Assembly: GCF_007970805.1 (NCBI RefSeq)
Contig: NZ_CP042433.1
Coordinates: 1,116,001 to 1,180,000 of the forward strand
Length of the DNA stretch: 64,000 bases
Origin: Flavisolibacter ginsenosidimutans
GTDB lineage: Bacteria > Bacteroidota > Bacteroidia > Chitinophagales > Chitinophagaceae
Direction of reading: 5' to 3'
Positions 933-64,000 of this stretch are shown piece after piece (position 1 is the stretch's first letter; every line of letters begins with the position of its first letter). A model generated the notes under the pieces. That model saw only the letters and a program-made list of their open reading frames with translations, was not told the origin of the DNA and made no database searches. Both the position numbers and the translations under genes were made by a program.

Positions 933-1132
933 GGCGGCAAAACTATGTAATAGCATTCTATTAATTTTTGTTGACTTATCTTTAGCCGGTTTCGTTGGTT
1001 GTTGAAGGTTTTGACACGGTCTGGTTTTTTTGTAAAACAAAGGCAAATAGACGCTTAAAAGCGACCGATTTACACAACCAAATGGTGTTTATTTCGTCTT
1101 ATTTATGTATCAGAAAATTTGGAGATTACCGT

Positions 1133-1423
1133 ATGCGAAAAGGAATAACCGAGAGCAGTTCTACCACTCCGCTTACCCTGCAAATGCTTCGTAAAATTGA
1201 AAACGACGGTTACAAATACGTCCAGGTAAAGGGCCTTACGTTTGACAAACATTACGATTACGTAGAGCCGCATTTTTTGGTGTTGGTTCCCATGAAGGAA
1301 TTGCCCACCGCACAGGAACACAAAGACGTTTACGAACCTGTCCCAAGCACGCTTTTACAGAAATGGGCCACGGAAAGCGACGACGCACTCGAGATCGTCA
1401 TTTCAACGAAACAGTTGAGTTAG
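1133..1423 (+). CDS. Small conserved-looking protein of unknown function
   Basis: A 96-residue soluble protein, MRKGITESSSTTPLTLQMLR..., with no signal peptide or membrane segment. I do not recognise the family. The ATG at 1133 is preferred over an upstream in-frame ATG at 995 because GGAG lies 9 nt before it and the extra upstream residues look non-coding. The middle is rich in charged and aromatic residues (KYVQVKGLTFDKHYDYVEPHFLV, here shortened in sense to a beta-rich stretch). It is followed by a strong terminator hairpin, so it is probably a single-gene unit. Confidence 0.6.
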   Translation: MRKGITESSSTTPLTLQMLRKIENDGYKYVQVKGLTFDKHYDYVEPHFLVLVPMKELPTAQEHKDVYEPVPSTLLQKWATESDDALEIVISTKQLS

Positions 1424-1455
1424 GGAAGCTCTTCAAAAAATCTAAATCTCTTCTT

Positions 1456-1495
1456 GCAGCGCAAAAGATTTATGCTTTTGCGCTGCTATTTTAAT
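1456..1495 (+). terminator. Rho-independent terminator
   Basis: A perfect 12-bp stem (GCAGCGCAAAAG at 1456-1467 with CTTTTGCGCTGC at 1475-1486) with a 7-nt loop is followed by a short T-rich tract. It ends the transcript of the 1133-1423 gene. Confidence 0.8.
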
Positions 1496-1522
1496 CCCTT
1501 CCCTTCATCGCGCCTCGCTCCG

Positions 1523-1551
1523 TTTTTTCAAAGCCAAACTCCTTAGCTTTG
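1523..1551 (+). promoter_or_regulatory. Candidate Bacteroidota promoter for the OsmC gene
   Basis: TAGCTTTG at 1544-1551 is a perfect TAnnTTTG -7 box, about 20 nt before the ATG at 1571. A T-rich tract near 1523-1528 is in roughly the right place for the -33 element, but it is not a clean TTTG. Confidence 0.5.
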
Positions 1552-1570
1552 CTTTCTTAAAAAGGCAATT

Positions 1571-1981
1571 ATGATCAGACATGCATCGGCCGTTTGGAAC
1601 GGCTCCGGTAAGGAAGGCAAAGGCACGGTAAGCTCACAAAGCGGTGTGCTCAATCAAACGCAATATTCGTATAACAGTCGTTTTGCCGAAGGAACAGGCA
1701 CAAATCCCGAAGAATTGGTAGCTGCCGCACATGCAGGTTGTTTCACCATGAAGTTGAGTTTTGTGTTGGGCGAAGCGGGTTTCACTCCCGAAAGCCTGGA
1801 AACCAAATGCGAGATTACATTTGAAAACGGTGCTATCACCAAATCACACCTGACAGTAAACGGGAAAGTGCCCGGCATCAGCAAAGAAAAATTTGATGAA
1901 TGCGTGAAGAACGCAGAAGCAAACTGCCCGATCTCAAAATTGCTTAACACCGCTATTTCATCGGAAGCAACGCTTGCTTAA
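1571..1981 (+). CDS. OsmC/Ohr-family thiol peroxidase-like protein
   Basis: A 136-residue OsmC-family protein, normally a cytoplasmic peroxidase that reduces organic hydroperoxides with a two-cysteine active site. Both expected cysteines are present: Cys57 in AAHAGCFTM and Cys119 in ANCPISKL. The length is typical. It is flanked by its own -7 box and its own terminator, so it is probably monocistronic. The family is clear; whether it is OsmC-type (osmotic/peroxide stress) or a related clade cannot be told from this alone. Confidence 0.93.
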   Translation: MIRHASAVWNGSGKEGKGTVSSQSGVLNQTQYSYNSRFAEGTGTNPEELVAAAHAGCFTMKLSFVLGEAGFTPESLETKCEITFENGAITKSHLTVNGKVPGISKEKFDECVKNAEANCPISKLLNTAISSEATLA

Positions 1982-56256: not shown

Positions 56257-56700
56257 TTAAGAAGGCACTAATTTCTTTGTTGTGTTCATGACGCTAGCAT
56301 TCTTGAACCGGGAGTTCTCAGCCACTTTTAATTTATAAGGCCGGTTAAATGCTTCCTGCGACACTTTAAAATACTTAGACAACTTACGAAGCACGTCTTT
56401 TGATAGCCCCTTTTTATAATGCAGGATTTCGGAAACATACCCTTTGCTGACATCTAAAAGATGGACTAAATCTTTTGGCTTGATGTTGTGCTCTTCCATT
56501 AATGAATGAAGAAGTCGAATGGGGTCTACCTCATCAAAACTATTGTGTTCACTGTCCCACTTTTCAATTAATAGGGTCAATAGGTCGATCTCATCCTGCA
56601 TTCGCTTACCTCCTTCTTTTTCCAAAAGGTTTTCCAACTCCTTACAATATTGATTGTACTGCGTTTTCGTTTTAATGACTCTGTATTTAAGCGTTTCCAT
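56257..56700 (-). CDS. higA: HigA-type antitoxin (HTH)
   Basis: A 147-residue protein: acidic N-terminal part (1-65) and an XRE-type helix-turn-helix (about 70-125; LMEEHNIKPKDLVHLLDVSKGYVSEIL). It would neutralise HigB and repress the operon through the inverted repeat at 57057-57077. It is 2 bp downstream of higB, the usual reversed toxin-first order of HigBA. Confidence 0.9.
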   Translation of the reverse strand: METLKYRVIKTKTQYNQYCKELENLLEKEGGKRMQDEIDLLTLLIEKWDSEHNSFDEVDPIRLLHSLMEEHNIKPKDLVHLLDVSKGYVSEILHYKKGLSKDVLRKLSKYFKVSQEAFNRPYKLKVAENSRFKNASVMNTTKKLVPS

Positions 56701-56702
56701 AA

Positions 56703-57035
56703 TTAATAAATGTTTACTGTGTATTGTTCATTCTTCTTGCACAGCTTATCATAGGCGGCATGACTGCCAATCCAACATACAAATAAATGCACCTGCTTCT
56801 CTCCAAAAACATATTTGCAAATCATTCTGTAGTTATTGCCTGCGATATCAAAGACTACTCTGTTAGAACCATTACCCAATAAATCTGCAGAACCAAAAGT
56901 GTCTTGCATATCTTCTGGTAAGTTCCAACCCGCATATCTTACCTTTTCCAGCCAGTCTTCGAGAGAACGCCTGCTTTGAGCATTTGCCTTTACAAAATCT
57001 TCGATGGTTTGCCTTTTGATAAGATGAACCTTCAT
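56703..57035 (-). CDS. higB: HigB-type mRNA interferase toxin
   Basis: A 110-residue RelE/HigB-fold toxin, MKVHLIKRQTIEDFV..., with GNGSNRVVFDIAGNNYRMICKYVFG and the C-terminal HLFVCWIGSHAAYDKL block (conserved His and Tyr). It cuts mRNA on the ribosome when the antitoxin is lost. The transcription start predicted from the -7 box is only a few bases from its ATG, so the message may be leaderless. Confidence 0.92.
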   Translation of the reverse strand: MKVHLIKRQTIEDFVKANAQSRRSLEDWLEKVRYAGWNLPEDMQDTFGSADLLGNGSNRVVFDIAGNNYRMICKYVFGEKQVHLFVCWIGSHAAYDKLCKKNEQYTVNIY

Positions 57036-57252: not shown

Positions 57253-58392
57253 CTAATAACCCCAAACGTACCCGTATGGCTTTTTAGGAAACTCTAAAGT
57301 ATTCTGGTCGACATCAGCCAATAGCTCGTCAGGGCTTTCAATGAACGGATCATACCAATCGGCCTTTCTTTTTGCCCATGCCAGCCATTCCTGAGTCTCA
57401 GGAGACCGGTTCTTTTCAGCCCTGACTTCCAGTTCATGAATATACCTGCGCAGGTTTTCAGCCTTATGCCACCTATCTGAATCAATGAGCAACTTCTTAA
57501 AGTTAATAAGATCTTGTTGCTTTCTTTCCTGCAGCTCTTTTGCCAGCCGCTCCCTTTCTGCACGCTCTATTCTGGCTTTTTCATATGCCAAATCTCGTTC
57601 TGTGCGTTGTGCTGCGGATAACTCCAGACCAGCAATGATTTTGGCCAATTGCTCTTCCAACCTGATGCTCCCGTCTTTATACTCTCGGCCATACCAGCCC
57701 CCTACCTGCAAGGCTAAAATTCCTTTGGGATGAAATATTTGCCTCGTCCAGGTTCTTTCCTGAACTGTTTCTTTTCGCATTTTTTCCCTTAGAAATAGCT
57801 CAAAATCGTGACCGCTAACAATCACCAAAGTTTTCCTATTTCTGATTTCAACGGTATGTCCCCGTGCTTTAAATGCTTTGATCAATGTATCAAAGAACAG
57901 AAGTGCACGATCTACATTTGTTTTAGCCACCCGTATATCCAAACCATCATAGCTGGATGACACAATGCCTATGTAATTATATCCATCTGGCTTTTGCTTT
58001 GAAAGAATGATTTTTGTTTGTGCAATTAATGGATCTGGTTTCAACAACTTTTCTGGAATTTGCAAAGAAAGTGATCCATCCCTCTCCACTTCCTGAATTT
58101 TCAATGTTCTAAGTGAAGGTGAATTACGATCAGCCGCAGGATTGTTTTCATCCCTCAATCGTAACTTGGCGGTTTCTTCTCCTTTATAATTTGCAGAAAG
58201 AGCAGTTTTCTTAACCTTTTTCCCAAATTGAACTTTCGTCCAATACCCTGCTGGCGGAACAGGTATTTCCATGCGGATACACATCTTACGAAGGCCAACA
58301 TCCGATATATTATATCGCTTGGAAAGTGATAGCATTGACTCCTGCCAAACCAATTCATAAAGCTCTTTCCGTGATAATACGATAGGATCCAT
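57253..58392 (-). CDS. Island-type protein with N-terminal HTH, function unknown
   Basis: A 379-residue soluble protein. Residues 5-60 (LSRKELYELVWQESMLSLSKRYNISDVGL...PVPPAGYWTKVQFGK) match the start of a protein family common in mobile islands, with a helix-turn-helix-like region and a PPxGYW signature. A long charged helical stretch (about 245-310, rich in Arg/Glu/Lys) and a WYDPFIESPDELL tail follow. The biochemical function is not known to me. It sits alone between two toxin-antitoxin systems. Confidence 0.75.
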   Translation of the reverse strand: MDPIVLSRKELYELVWQESMLSLSKRYNISDVGLRKMCIRMEIPVPPAGYWTKVQFGKKVKKTALSANYKGEETAKLRLRDENNPAADRNSPSLRTLKIQEVERDGSLSLQIPEKLLKPDPLIAQTKIILSKQKPDGYNYIGIVSSSYDGLDIRVAKTNVDRALLFFDTLIKAFKARGHTVEIRNRKTLVIVSGHDFELFLREKMRKETVQERTWTRQIFHPKGILALQVGGWYGREYKDGSIRLEEQLAKIIAGLELSAAQRTERDLAYEKARIERAERERLAKELQERKQQDLINFKKLLIDSDRWHKAENLRRYIHELEVRAEKNRSPETQEWLAWAKRKADWYDPFIESPDELLADVDQNTLEFPKKPYGYVWGY

Positions 58393-58509: not shown

Positions 58510-59466
58510 CTATAGTCTATTTAAATTATCCCTGATCCGAGCAAGTACTTCCTCAAAATTGGGTTGCCCTTGATAATAAAGGTTCTTTGTTGCTTCATAG
58601 CGTTTTGTAAAGTCTGCGCGGATCTCAGGATCAGACAATAAAAACGCTTCATTTTCTAAAAGCGGAACCTGTAAATCTGCTTTTGGAAAGCGCTTTTGCT
58701 TGTGAGTCTCATATTCTGCTGTGCCTATAAAGCTTTGCACTTCGGGATGGTTCAGCAAGCAATAAATATCATAATACTGACGCATGTAGTTTAGCTGCTT
58801 GGCAGCACCTTCCTGCTCCTTGCGAAACTTAGTGGCAATGGTTTGCAGCTTTTCCACAAAAGTATACCCCGGATGATAGCAAGCTATCGCTATTGCCTGG
58901 TTATTGATCAATCCCGGCACTTCGCTTTCCAAGGCATAGTCTAGTGCCCAGGAGGATATGGTAAGTTCCTTATTAGGTGTGACGGTATCAAACCCTGCTT
59001 CCAGTAAAATTCCGGATTTTACCCCTGTGATTGGTTCTGTTAGTGAATCATATAAAAGGCGAATTCCCCCACTTCGATAAGCATCCTCATCGTCAAATGC
59101 TGTGTCTCGCTCAGCTTTTTCAATCCCATCGATTTGAAGGTTAGCGGCCAGCCAGTCATAAAAACTTTTTCGTGAAAGAACATGTTGTTCTTTGGTTTTC
59201 TTCGGGTTTACCTCAACGCCCAGCTCCGCTGGCGGGTGTATATGAATATCGATGTCTTCTGAAAACCGGTGAATAATGCCATACCCTTTTGATAGAGAAG
59301 TTCCGCCTTTGAGTTCAAATTTCAGCGCCTGTTTCTTTAGACCATGCAATACATGCATGATCCAATAATCTTTTTCTACCAGCGTGGGTAGTATCCCTTT
59401 TGCTTCCGCAACAATAGCTAACAAATCGGCAAATTGGGAATGTTCGTGCAGGTAAATAGAGGCCAT
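58510..59466 (-). CDS. abiEii: AbiEii-type nucleotidyltransferase toxin
   Basis: A 318-residue nucleotidyltransferase of the AbiEii (DUF1814) family, toxin of the AbiE phage-abortive system. Motif I is GGTSLSK (54-60), followed by the metal pair D71-x-D73 in SEDIDIHIH; a Lys/Asp-containing helix (KLQTIATKFRKEQ) supplies the later motif. It modifies an RNA target to stop growth on phage infection. Its ATG overlaps the antitoxin stop (TAATG), indicating coupling. Confidence 0.92.
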   Translation of the reverse strand: MASIYLHEHSQFADLLAIVAEAKGILPTLVEKDYWIMHVLHGLKKQALKFELKGGTSLSKGYGIIHRFSEDIDIHIHPPAELGVEVNPKKTKEQHVLSRKSFYDWLAANLQIDGIEKAERDTAFDDEDAYRSGGIRLLYDSLTEPITGVKSGILLEAGFDTVTPNKELTISSWALDYALESEVPGLINNQAIAIACYHPGYTFVEKLQTIATKFRKEQEGAAKQLNYMRQYYDIYCLLNHPEVQSFIGTAEYETHKQKRFPKADLQVPLLENEAFLLSDPEIRADFTKRYEATKNLYYQGQPNFEEVLARIRDNLNRL

Positions 59467-60047
59467 TAGGGAGTATTCTGCAAAAAGGATGAAAACAACT
59501 TTTGTGTACGCACATTACCATACTGCCGTACAGCAGCTCGCAATTTTGGACCGTCCATCTCTTTTGCCTTATCTGCCGCTCTAGCTAATACCTCTTCTCC
59601 ATTCTCTGCTAGTTGAGCTAGATTATTTACCAGGTCTACCAGCAGGAACTCCTCAGTTACTTGCTTTGGGAAGTGTGGCTTTACTCGGAAACTATAAGAG
59701 CGGTTCCCGAGCTTAAAAGTGCCATGACGCTTGTGATTATAAACGACAGGCTGGTTATAAAGCTGGGTAGTGCCTACGCCAAGGCTATTATACGCATTTG
59801 GTGAGGTAAGCAGGAAACGATTGTCTTTTAAAAACCCTCGTACCAATTCCTTATCCTCAGGAGGAGCTTGGCCGAAAGCCGTTTTTCGAGGAACGTAATA
59901 AACGCCCCGAGCTGCTTTACGTAGTGCACCTTCCTGCACCAAGTTACTAAGGTCACGGTCAACAGAAGAGGAATACTGTTCCAGGTCCTCCCGACGGTAC
60001 ACCTTGCCAGGTCTCAGTTTTTCCCTTATTTGTTCTGTTTGTGCCAT
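59466..60047 (-). CDS. abiEi: AbiEi-type antitoxin
   Basis: A 193-residue protein with an N-terminal winged helix (KVYRREDLEQYSSSVDRDLSNLVQEGALRKAARGVYYVP) and a C-terminal AbiEi domain (TTQLYNQPVVYNHKRHGTFKLGNRSYSFRVKPHFP). It represses the operon and opposes AbiEii without direct binding, as known for type IV toxin-antitoxins. A 7-bp inverted repeat lies just upstream of its start. Confidence 0.9.
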   Translation of the reverse strand: MAQTEQIREKLRPGKVYRREDLEQYSSSVDRDLSNLVQEGALRKAARGVYYVPRKTAFGQAPPEDKELVRGFLKDNRFLLTSPNAYNSLGVGTTQLYNQPVVYNHKRHGTFKLGNRSYSFRVKPHFPKQVTEEFLLVDLVNNLAQLAENGEEVLARAADKAKEMDGPKLRAAVRQYGNVRTQKLFSSFLQNTP

Positions 60048-60225: not shown

Positions 60226-63200
60226 CTAACTCTCAAATTTTCTCAACTGAATATCAATAGCACCTTCATTTGCCTTAATAAAATATTTCATCTCTATTTG
60301 CCCAAATACATTCACGTTATCATGGCCGGTTATATAACTGTTCTTCTCTATAAAATCCTTTTGGCCAAAAATATGTTTCTCGAAATCTGAAGATTTCCGG
60401 ATAACCGGGTGCTCGAAATATTTGTCATAAGATGAACAAACGGAGTTGATAAAAGTATTTGCCTTGATGCTTTCAAATGGGTGCAAAATAACCAGGTAAT
60501 CTCTTGCTCTGCTAATAGCTACATTATAGATGTACTCTTTCGACAAGAGGCACCGGGGGTGACCAGTGTAGTAATAATTATTGGGATTGGAAATGAAGAA
60601 TACAATGTCACACTCGTCGCCCTGGAAACCGTGTACTGTATCCGAATACACTTTCAGCTTTTCTGATAAACCATATGATGTTACCAGTTTATTGAGCAAG
60701 ATTGCTTGTGCTTTGTAAGGAGCAATCAACCCAACTGTCCAACTTTCCTTGGCATCTAACAATGAATCCAAGTACTTTAAAAGCTCCGCTACGAATATTG
60801 CGCTGTAAATATGGTAAGAACTGTATAGTAGCTTACTTATTTTAAAGATGGAGTTATCCACGTTTAGCGGTATATCAATAAACGTCACGTTTTTATTGAG
60901 AAGTTTAGCAAAACTGGCAGGTAGGATTTTTGCCTTGTCGTTCTGTTGCTCCCGGTCATGTTTCAACAACCCACTATAAGACAACGAGCTAAAGAGTTGG
61001 CCAATATGTTTTACACTCCTATACTGGGTTTCTAGGTTAGTTATCTTATCAATTCCACGCAGCACTTGTTCTGAACGCTTAAAGCTGTTCACAGACATCA
61101 TTGTATACACGTTTTCATCCTGTATATCCAGCTCCTCCAAGTCTTTATCATTCACATCTACGACCGGTGGTATTTGTTTAGGATCGCCAGCCACGATAAA
61201 TTTTGCATTAGGATTAAATTTGTAAATAGACAATATAGCAAAAACCAAGTAGGGTAAGTTGATCATCGACGACTCGTCGAAAATGACGTAATCCCAGTGG
61301 TTAGGTAGTTCGAAAAGCCTCAAACTTTCATCATTGTCCTCGTCAAACACTTCGAAATAGGGAACGCGGTGTATCGTAGAAGCGATGACATTGGTACAGT
61401 CCAGCAGCTTCATATCCACTGAATCGCTATAAACACTTTCTTGTAGGGCTTCGAGCTCGGGGTCAGTTGGCTTACCCACCCTCGTGATAGAGACATGTTT
61501 ACTAGCCTTGGCTAATTCCTTTAGTTTTATTCCCACTTTATCATTGGGATTAGCAGCAGGTATTAACAGCTTCTTACACAGCACGTCGGCTGCTTTATTG
61601 GTAGGGGTCAATATTAGGTATCTCGCATTGTACTTCTCCTTTATGCCATTTATTATCGAACAGCAAAGCGTTGTTGTCTTACCTGTACCTGGGGGTCCAT
61701 ATATAAAGTGCAAGCTTGGTAGCACATCTTTGATCTCCTCCCATGTTTCCAAGTAATGCCTATTAGTAAAGGCATTATAAAGGCGTTGTAGCAAGTCAAT
61801 TACTGGTGAAAAGCTAATCTTGACCTGTATGACATCCTTGAATAAACGTATAGTGGCCTGCGTAATAGGTTCCCTGCAGTAGATCAAGAGGTCTTGCCCT
61901 TTTTTGGAGACACCCTCAACTATGATGGTCTCGTTCTGCTTGTTTTTAATAACAAGCGTAATCTTAAAATCTTCGAAATCCTCAATGTTTAAAGGAATCA
62001 TGGAGCTGGCACCGCAAAGCAAAAAATACCTATTGGATATTTCATCATTGATAAGGTACTGTTTGATCGCTTGGAAGGAGATAGACTTTTGTTTGGTAGT
62101 ATCTTGCTTACTTTCAAAAGTCAACAGAAACTTTAAATACGAATCAAACCACTCATAGGAATAGTCATTGTTGGATTTAATTTCTTCAATAAGCTCATTT
62201 CTTTCTTGCTTCAGGTTTTCCTCCTTGAACGCAGCTTGTAGAGCTTCCAAATGTGCGTTGTTAACTTCACCTTTTCCTGCAGCATTTAAAGTATTATAAA
62301 TGCTTGCCAACATTACATTACGCCTATGTATCAAATCGTCTATAGACTCCGAAAGCTCTTCGTAATCATCACCCAAGTCTTCACGCAAATTTTCTAGCGT
62401 GCTATTCTGTAAATAATGGATCTTAGAAATATCGTCTCGTTCGTCCACGTAAAATGAACCATCTGCTATTCTTGCAACTTTTACATCTTTGTCTTCAGTT
62501 TCAATATACACATCATAAAGGATTTCTTTTTCCTTATATAATTCAATCTCGTGTTCTTCCTTCCATTGACGATAAAAGGGTTCGTCATGTTCTACACGAT
62601 CTTCTTGTAAGACAAAACGCATTTCAAACTCTAGTTCAATACTATTTTCTACAATCTTTTCGTTGAGTGAGGGTGTCAACCGCAACAACGGGTATGCAGC
62701 GTATACTTGTTCCAGATTGTTTCTTTCAAATAGTTTCAACTTGTTGTACAGGTCTTCCTTTATGTAGTAGACACTGTTCTCATGCGAGTCTAGTATCCTG
62801 AAACTGTTATCGGTTTTATGAATGACTACGGGGTACTGGCCAACCTCAGAATCCACTAGCGAATTCACAATTTGCTCAAGTAATGCTAATCGTTCTTTGT
62901 CATGTTCTTGGAAGATTAATGGTACAGCTTTCAAGTGTAGAAAGGACCCAGCAACCCCGTTCAAAGTGTTCAAAAGCAGTTGGTCGCTAAATTTACCAAC
63001 TTCAATTTCTTTTGGCAGTTGTTTTAGTTCCCCAATAAGGTACCTTCTTAGCTTTTGTAGCGGGCTTTCATTAACATGAATACCTATTGCTATGAAGAAA
63101 TCGTCCTTCTTCTTTTCATTGTTGTGCCAAGCAAGGAACTCCTCTGGTAATTGTTCCCCTGCTATGCAAATCCCATTCAATAAGTACTCTTGCGGCCGTA

Positions 63201-64000
63201 TGCCGAGGTATTCCTCCCAGTCTTGGCCTCGCTTATAGTGCCTATTCTGCGGCAATGTGTTAGCCCAACCCTTGTATAAATAAGTAAGTTTATCATGAAT
63301 ATTTGCATCACTCTCTAGCACTTCCGGATTACAACCTCCTACGAAAAGGAACCTCGGTGCCATTAAGTCATCTTCATTCTCACCATAGTTAAAAGCCTCG
63401 AAGTCATTTAACTGTAACAATGATTGAAGATCACTGTAATCATCACTTAATACATGAACGTGATCAACAAATTCACGGTTCTCTTCTGTAGGGAAAAAGA
63501 CTTGGTCCTCCAAAGTATACCATGTATTAGTAAAGGATTTGAGGCTATAATCTTTCAGATCTTCCTTCTTGAAATATCCAGATAGTAAAACAAAAAGCAG
63601 TTGGTGCGAGTTTTCAAGTTTGTTTTCTTCCAGCCTATCTTTGAACCTTTCAACCAACTCTTCGGTAATCCCTGTACTGGATAGTTTGAAAAGCTTGTCA
63701 GCGGTTGTTTGGTTAACCAAGTCCCGCTTCTTAGCCTCGTCGTGGAACGACTGTATAAGCTTTATATTATCCGCACTTTCAAGGTTCAAAACTTGTGACT
63801 GTGACAAAGTTATCATCTTGTCTACTCTTGTTACTTCTATAGAGTCATGGGCACTATCAATCTCGCCAATGATAATCTGCTGCTCACCCATGAAGATTGA
63901 AATCTTGTTATGGATCTCTTGTAATTCAGTTGGCGTAATCTCGCCCTCAATAACTGCCTTTAATAACTTGATATAAAGTTCATTTTGCCGTTCTTCGATC
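60226..64000 (-). CDS. Giant SF1 helicase, N-terminus beyond window
   Basis: At least 1257 residues. The first ATG inside the window is at 63891, but the same frame stays open upstream to base 64000 (reads IEERQNELYIKLLKAVIEGE...), so the true start is probably outside. Counting from the internal ATG: a large region of unknown fold (1-690), then an SF1 (UPF1/Dna2-like) core with Walker A GPPGTGKTT (732-740), Walker B FDESS (871-875), GDPKQIPP (902-909) and the late motifs VHGFQGDE and YNVAISRARDYLVIL. It is next to AbiE and probably belongs to a defence island. The N-terminal role is unknown. Confidence 0.85.
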   Translation of the reverse strand, partial: IEERQNELYIKLLKAVIEGEITPTELQEIHNKISIFMGEQQIIIGEIDSAHDSIEVTRVDKMITLSQSQVLNLESADNIKLIQSFHDEAKKRDLVNQTTADKLFKLSSTGITEELVERFKDRLEENKLENSHQLLFVLLSGYFKKEDLKDYSLKSFTNTWYTLEDQVFFPTEENREFVDHVHVLSDDYSDLQSLLQLNDFEAFNYGENEDDLMAPRFLFVGGCNPEVLESDANIHDKLTYLYKGWANTLPQNRHYKRGQDWEEYLGIRPQEYLLNGICIAGEQLPEEFLAWHNNEKKKDDFFIAIGIHVNESPLQKLRRYLIGELKQLPKEIEVGKFSDQLLLNTLNGVAGSFLHLKAVPLIFQEHDKERLALLEQIVNSLVDSEVGQYPVVIHKTDNSFRILDSHENSVYYIKEDLYNKLKLFERNNLEQVYAAYPLLRLTPSLNEKIVENSIELEFEMRFVLQEDRVEHDEPFYRQWKEEHEIELYKEKEILYDVYIETEDKDVKVARIADGSFYVDERDDISKIHYLQNSTLENLREDLGDDYEELSESIDDLIHRRNVMLASIYNTLNAAGKGEVNNAHLEALQAAFKEENLKQERNELIEEIKSNNDYSYEWFDSYLKFLLTFESKQDTTKQKSISFQAIKQYLINDEISNRYFLLCGASSMIPLNIEDFEDFKITLVIKNKQNETIIVEGVSKKGQDLLIYCREPITQATIRLFKDVIQVKISFSPVIDLLQRLYNAFTNRHYLETWEEIKDVLPSLHFIYGPPGTGKTTTLCCSIINGIKEKYNARYLILTPTNKAADVLCKKLLIPAANPNDKVGIKLKELAKASKHVSITRVGKPTDPELEALQESVYSDSVDMKLLDCTNVIASTIHRVPYFEVFDEDNDESLRLFELPNHWDYVIFDESSMINLPYLVFAILSIYKFNPNAKFIVAGDPKQIPPVVDVNDKDLEELDIQDENVYTMMSVNSFKRSEQVLRGIDKITNLETQYRSVKHIGQLFSSLSYSGLLKHDREQQNDKAKILPASFAKLLNKNVTFIDIPLNVDNSIFKISKLLYSSYHIYSAIFVAELLKYLDSLLDAKESWTVGLIAPYKAQAILLNKLVTSYGLSEKLKVYSDTVHGFQGDECDIVFFISNPNNYYYTGHPRCLLSKEYIYNVAISRARDYLVILHPFESIKANTFINSVCSSYDKYFEHPVIRKSSDFEKHIFGQKDFIEKNSYITGHDNVNVFGQIEMKYFIKANEGAIDIQLRKFES

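Follow-up and report, generated by a model that had tools for sequence, protein, structure and literature searches.

The gene considered here, carried by Flavisolibacter ginsenosidimutans, resembles two described defence systems in different parts of its product. Tiamat reportedly goes back to Millman et al. in 2022, and its protein TmtA has an N-terminal GHKL ATPase and a long scaffold; the passages of the literature available to us name the system in lists, without an explanation of its working. Mokosh has a UPF1-like superfamily 1 (SF1) helicase core and is defined by a PLD nuclease domain encoded either in the same chain or in the next gene. The gene lies on the minus strand at the right end of a stretch of 64,000 nucleotides (the window; positions 1116001-1180000 of contig C1, NZ_CP042433.1, the single contig of 5,079,621 bases that makes up the genome). 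Judged from its sequence, it is a real, intact and sporadically distributed gene of defence type, in which a TmtA-like head is fused to an SF1 helicase tail.

Looser precedents also couple a GHKL ATPase to a second enzyme. In R-M (restriction-modification) neighbourhoods, MORC and paraMORC proteins are GHKL ATPases tied to helicases and R-M genes, and pairs of a GHKL protein and a helicase encoded in R-M operons have been proposed to act by looping DNA and unwinding it (PMC2292703). The protein from F. ginsenosidimutans likewise has a GHKL ATPase with a helicase, an R-M context in several homologues and a MORC fold match, but its helicase is of SF1 and fused, whereas theirs belongs to superfamily 2 and is encoded by a separate gene (PMC2292703, in part). 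In the GHKL-Shedu protein VcSduA, the GHKL head is proposed to control a C-terminal effector within one chain, and the excerpt at hand reports that defence is lost in ATPase mutants and in nuclease mutants alike; that effector is a PD-(D/E)xK nuclease, whereas the present protein has a helicase and a far longer scaffold (PMC12137116). Our literature searches returned nothing on a GHKL-scaffold-helicase architecture, nor on BREX or PglZ with an Hsp90-like ATPase and a helicase.

The first-pass annotation, which had only half of the gene before it, described a giant helicase whose frame was open at the right edge of the window and proposed a rightward extension. The ORF (open reading frame; 60226-63999, minus strand) does run past that edge, and once extended it emerges as one uninterrupted ORF of 2,307 amino acids (aa) without stop codons (60226-67149 in extended coordinates, minus strand; C1:1176226-1183149; L002:2227-9150, minus strand, in the extended locus), in which the ATG at 63891 previously taken as the start is internal and corresponds to residue 1087. 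The ORF is not a product of chance, because its homologues align end to end (31-73% identity among full-length ones) and nonsynonymous change stays far under the saturated synonymous change in all five pairs tested. Its guanine-plus-cytosine content is 0.394, and that of the adjoining Qat genes 0.359, against 0.457 for positions 1-54000 of the window.

Residues 1-1702 align with positions 1-1451 of the 1,552-position PADLOC TmtA model PDLC03970 (E 3.9e-170). Most of the TmtA profile is thus covered, and the protein has the GHKL ATPase and long scaffold of Tiamat, but differs from it in that the last 101 positions of this best TmtA model stay unaligned and in that a predicted SF1 helicase of ~670 residues follows the scaffold. 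Because this further enzymatic module lies beyond the TmtA match, we file the protein as a TmtA-like fusion and not as Tiamat proper. The head, at residues ~35-576, is a GHKL ATPase module of the sacsin/MORC/Hsp90 type. It is matched by Pfam SACS (2.5e-11) and HATPase_c_3 (8e-8) and by NCBIfam P_loop_sacsin NF047352 (62.8 bits, above the cut-off of 50), and a profile built from 33 relatives had sacsin as its sole PDB match (E <= 0.01). The GHKL motifs ExxQN (81-85), NNG (113-115) and GKFGIGFK (142-149) occupy positions that are nearly all invariant or more than 90% conserved across the 33 sequences. The structure predicted for residues 1-1190 (predicted local distance difference test, pLDDT, 86.5; predicted template modelling score, pTM, 0.57) gives a head that compares best with sacsin SR1 (Z 12.1, 187 aligned residues, 4.4 Å) and MORC3 (Z 12.0, 292 aligned, 5.4 Å), and that also matches topoisomerase VI-B and TRAP1/Hsp90. 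With Bergerat-fold motifs and an S5-type second domain, the modelled fold over this region is that of a sacsin/MORC/Hsp90-type GHKL ATPase, the likeness to MORC and paraMORC being one of predicted fold only. The earlier guess that the unplaced part of the protein might hold a GHKL ATPase or sensor domain was correct for the portion outside the window, and what lies at the N-terminus is no standard repair domain.

At the other end of the chain, the UPF1/Dna2-like core read in the first-pass annotation is confirmed by both sequence and predicted fold. Pfam AAA_12 (1.3e-21) and AAA_11 (6.6e-15) match the helicase core, and the structure predicted for residues 1130-2307 (pLDDT 77.4, pTM 0.57) aligns with Ighmbp2, Sen1, Upf1 and Dna2. 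Besides motif I, the motifs DESS (1958-1961), GDPKQIPP (1988-1995), HGFQGDE (2173-2179) and NVAISRARD (2209-2217) were recognised, and the key catalytic residues are invariant in all 19 alignment rows. By analogy with its UPF1 and Dna2 relatives, the enzyme would act on nucleic acid with 5'-3' polarity. Stalk helices and a 1B barrel occupy residues ~1594-1757 in the secondary structure of the model, so that the 690-residue region which could not be placed from the window (1087-1776) is mostly the end of the fast-evolving scaffold, and in part the helicase's own stalk and barrel; the protein is better regarded as a TmtA-like scaffold that ends in a helicase than as a giant helicase. The PADLOC Mokosh models match the helicase only (MkoA 7.4e-36 over residues 1807-2230; MkoC 1.3e-20). 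Unlike Mokosh, the chain contains no PLD nuclease or kinase domain in Pfam (PLD at E <= 0.1), and the adjoining genes encode AbiEi and QatD.

In 18 of 18 full-length pairs, the scaffold that separates head and helicase (641-1590) shows lower identity to its counterpart than either flanking module does. Its dN (nonsynonymous divergence) reaches 1.5-2.0 times that of the head in five of five pairs, in all of which dS (synonymous divergence) is saturated, so that dN/dS is not usable as a test of selection. No fold matches were obtained for residues ~580-1590, though this stretch was barely searched.

The distribution of the fusion gene is sporadic. Two of 17 genus mates carry it (G409 with 73% and G408 with 33% identity), a full-length match occurs in the own genome only among 395 genomes of the phylum, and the C-terminal half is found at E <= 1e-100 in two of 395 genomes of the class, the own genome included; this is not the pattern of a housekeeping gene conserved in all relatives, which the first-pass annotation had named as one of two findings that would overturn its view, the other being a known repair domain at the N-terminus. 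When 84,980 species genomes were scanned with an N-terminal alignment, by short peptide patterns and hence not exhaustively, 65 loci emerged, 16 of which have the full-length helicase form (2,225-2,318 aa; 15 of them in Bacteroidota records). Together with the own gene and those of G408 and G409, these make up the 19 full-length members referred to below; two loci with broken frames (L042, L050), two short or cut ones (L049, L057) and a shorter relative of 1,783 aa (L078) were left out. A phage-borne gene was considered and rejected, as none of 41 pattern matches in viral contigs was confirmed and phage records held one helicase-only match. Among plasmids, 94 records matched, none of them reaching 80% query coverage.

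The genes beside other members point to a defence setting, in part to methylation-based systems. In five of the 19 the gene lies within a type I R-M operon, with hsdM-hsdS on one side and hsdR on the other (L039, L044, L055, L056, L051; a PDB check of the type I genes covered HsdR and HsdS for L039 and HsdR for L044), and type I genes are close by in three others (L045, L046, L047). DrmMI-, DpdE/DrmD- and DruE-like genes lie upstream in G409. In Balneola (L078, or G297) the shorter relative and two small genes separate PglX from PglZ-BrxL, and two plasmid relatives with another scaffold are directly downstream of methyltransferase and DEAD/DEAH helicase genes. Membership of BREX itself was rejected: helicase-tailed loci in or by BREX number two only, the own locus and that of the shorter relative, and the others are beside type I R-M or beside neither R-M nor BREX. 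A PADLOC scan covered the neighbours of 19 helicase-tailed loci, counting L078, G408 and G409 but not the own locus: 80 neighbours matched 208 families, among them PDC-S68 in nine proteins and MTase_I models in 7-11 proteins each. By comparison, 18 relatives without the helicase (Aureispira, Saprospira, Cytophagales and others) had 90 neighbours in the scan, which matched 44 families, none with more than two proteins. By this contrast, a defence setting is a property of helicase-tailed proteins and does not extend to all that have the head.

PDC-S68, a PADLOC phage-defence candidate for which our literature search gave no match, is a RecD-like helicase encoded by a separate gene, and it adjoins nine of the 19 members at gaps of -4 to 17 bp (L039, L041, L043, L044, L048, L051, L055, L056, G408; called by profile in two loci and by homology in the others). 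Two loci left out of the 19 have it as well: it stands beside L057, which is cut, and fragments of it lie near L050, whose frame is broken. Its background is eight of 395 phylum genomes (E <= 1e-100, anywhere in the genome), and no full-length member of the present family was seen in those eight stretches, one of which (L140) starts inside a cut helicase-like ORF. In L139 (5635-12491) PDC-S68 immediately adjoins another, distinct GHKL protein (G141), and in L142 and L143 its neighbours, judged by eye, are SMC/RecF-like ATPases, which gives the impression that it pairs with large ATPases of various kinds.

Head and helicase are also found in other combinations. When proteins of more than 1,100 aa (62 in all, including four that do not come from the 65 loci) are compared by their last 500 residues, they fall into clusters of 35, 20, 4, 2 and 1, the cluster of 20 being helicase-tailed and that of two (G373, L099) bearing a DarT tail (4.9e-20, 5.2e-21) with a DarG-like macro gene alongside. 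A C-terminal Pfam scan of 10 representatives gave three NOV_C and one DarT, with six lacking a match. A separate UPF1-like helicase is the next gene to shorter chains in six loci (L059, L065, L071, L081, L102, L072), so that the pairing of scaffold and helicase exists both fused and unfused. Conversely, the same helicase module is carried on a different TmtA scaffold in G079: its helicase is 56% identical to the present one and nests in a 15-row group of the helicase tree with 100/100 support, while at the N-terminus only 125 residues match (29.6%), and in the scaffold none.

Some further observations concern these relatives. The separate helicase has a C-terminal PIN domain in two of three scanned (L071, 14692-17034, and L102; not L072). 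In Dolichospermum (L074, 10001-17900) the scaffold is divided into proteins of 1,138 and 789 aa, and a short separate gene, named DarT-like by reading, is followed by a DarG-like macro gene; the arrangement seems to represent the system that G373 and L099 have in DarT-fused form. The Aureispira, Saprospira and Cytophagales relatives (L075-L097), mostly of 1,780-2,003 aa, are almost without defence neighbours, and three of their tails scanned had no Pfam match. In L060 and L064, TmtA-like genes are beside a UG19-type reverse transcriptase (RVT_1 in L060, profile match in L064); L060 also has a VWA-NOV_C protein, and a VWA gene that reads similarly adjoins the TmtA-helicase gene of G408.

The own locus is a defence island, as the first-pass annotation had supposed from AbiE and HigBA, both of which were found (Table 1), and a larger one than it supposed. 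Directly upstream, on the same strand, are QatD, QatC, QatB (weak, 5.1e-7) and QatA, a complete QatABCD; beyond them, still on that strand, BrxL, PglZ type A, PglX, BrxC, BrxB and BrxA form a complete BREX-1, so that BREX-1, QatABCD, the fusion gene, AbiE and HigBA all share one strand. An RmuC-family gene (L033:9303-10853) and a WYL regulator follow BREX, and then a serine recombinase on the opposite strand; an RmuC-family gene also lies 213 bp off the TmtA-helicase gene in L040 (411-1682). The right-flank gene is present in one of nine genus mates. The search for an exact empty site was unsuccessful; at the nucleotide level, synteny to three genus mates extends over ~49-55 kb of the window only.

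Table 1. Features of the right end of the window (positions are those of the window; assignments are predictions).
Feature	Position	Strand	Evidence or remark
TmtA-like GHKL ATPase/SF1 helicase, in-window part (residues 1051-2307)	60226..64000	-	ORF reading
Scaffold, C-terminal part, fast-evolving (residues 1051-1638, including start of stalk helices)	62236..63999	-	Model and identity comparison
UPF1/Sen1/Dna2-type SF1 helicase module (residues ~1639-2269)	60343..62235	-	Pfam AAA_11/AAA_12; VIA-align Z 17-19
Helicase motif I GPPGTGKTT (residues 1818-1826)	61672..61698	-	Invariant in 19/19 aligned homologues
AbiEi-like antitoxin, 178 bp downstream of fusion gene	59466..60047	-	PDLC02234 1.1e-88
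AbiEii nucleotidyltransferase toxin	58510..59466	-	PF08843 7.2e-29; PDLC02289 9.2e-73
379-aa protein, no family match	57253..58392	-	44% identical homologue near G409 TmtA-helicase gene (L106:3728-4849)
HigB toxin, PD-Lambda-2_A-like	56703..57035	-	PF09907 1.4e-22; PDLC03981 1.1e-22
Helix-turn-helix (HTH) antitoxin partner, PD-Lambda-2_B-like	56257..56700	-	HTH_26 1.6e-6; PDLC03982 3.3e-23

A defence role for the fusion protein, predicted from its domains, its motifs and the island context, is well supported. We favour, with a probability of roughly 0.68, an accessory protein against phages and other mobile DNA that would combine a sensor ATPase and a helicase effector in one chain, stationed beside methylation-based self/non-self systems (type I R-M and BREX, with DISARM/Dpd-like genes in one genus mate). 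The fast-evolving scaffold of ~1,000 residues would meet or recognise a cue of infection; ATP would then close the GHKL head as a dimer clamp or chaperone-like switch, as its GHKL relatives suggest and as the part of the VcSduA study at hand offers in precedent (PMC12137116). The helicase, thereby released or loaded, might unwind or strip foreign nucleic acid or load a partner on it, leaving the remaining work to R-M, BREX or PDC-S68 where present. Several observations weigh against this proposal. In about half of the 19 loci, no modification system was recognised within the stretch examined, and Pfam searches of the chain at E <= 0.1 turned up no nuclease. PDC-S68 is absent from the own genome and from G409 and stands beside other partners in the eight background genomes, one of them a different GHKL protein, for which reasons an obligate two-gene system with it was rejected. 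The rapid change of the scaffold would also agree with relaxed constraint.

The position of the gene within type I operons recalls a different arrangement. PrrC beside EcoprrI is the precedent for a guard, and guards of the PrrC type sit between hsdS and hsdR, the slot that five of the 19 members occupy. The fusion protein might accordingly monitor the R-M or BREX machinery, or DNA processed by it, and act when a phage inhibits it, its helicase arresting host or phage replication or transcription in an abortive infection. The same-head relative between PglX and PglZ and the two plasmid relatives behind methyltransferase and helicase genes agree with such surveillance, but partners vary, several members have no modification system to watch in the stretch examined, and QatABCD separates the fusion gene from BREX in the own locus; a specific guard relation is therefore not conserved, and we regard it as possible but doubtful. 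The protein could also be a helper in DNA processing and not an effector, removing ends, stalled forks or R-loops that restriction or exclusion systems next to it have made, whereby it would protect the host chromosome or complete degradation. The UPF1/Sen1/Dna2-like character of the helicase, the RecD-like second helicase PDC-S68 and the looping and unwinding proposed for GHKL and helicase pairs in the accessible part of the R-M operon study (PMC2292703) would all suit this role, which is nevertheless unlikely given the sporadic distribution and the DarT toxin tail with DarG alongside in relatives, which suggests attack rather than repair. Least probable by far is an ordinary chromosomal helicase or repair protein: the core does resemble the IGHMBP2 and RecD families, yet it scores 75.5 bits against the IGHMBP2 model (NCBIfam TIGR00376), whose cut-off of 348.9 led to rejection of that assignment, and a gene held by two of 17 genus mates among defence neighbours hardly fits a general chromosomal function.

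Beyond the accessory sensor-effector reading of the fusion protein, what is new here is the occurrence of the head with other tails, of the helicase on a different TmtA scaffold, of PDC-S68 next to the gene and of the gene in the hsdS-hsdR slot. That the same head bears different tails, and the same helicase different heads, indicates which part probably acts as switch and which as effector. We tentatively extend this to TmtA-like proteins at large, which may be sensor platforms with exchangeable effectors (SF1 helicase, DarT fused or separate with DarG, NOV_C, other tails), inserted as cassettes in methylation-based defence operons and using a hypervariable scaffold for pathogen recognition. 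Such a logic would parallel that of NLR/Avs proteins, with an Hsp90/MORC-type ATPase as its base instead; if true, it would add an Hsp90/MORC-like class of sensors to bacterial immunity.

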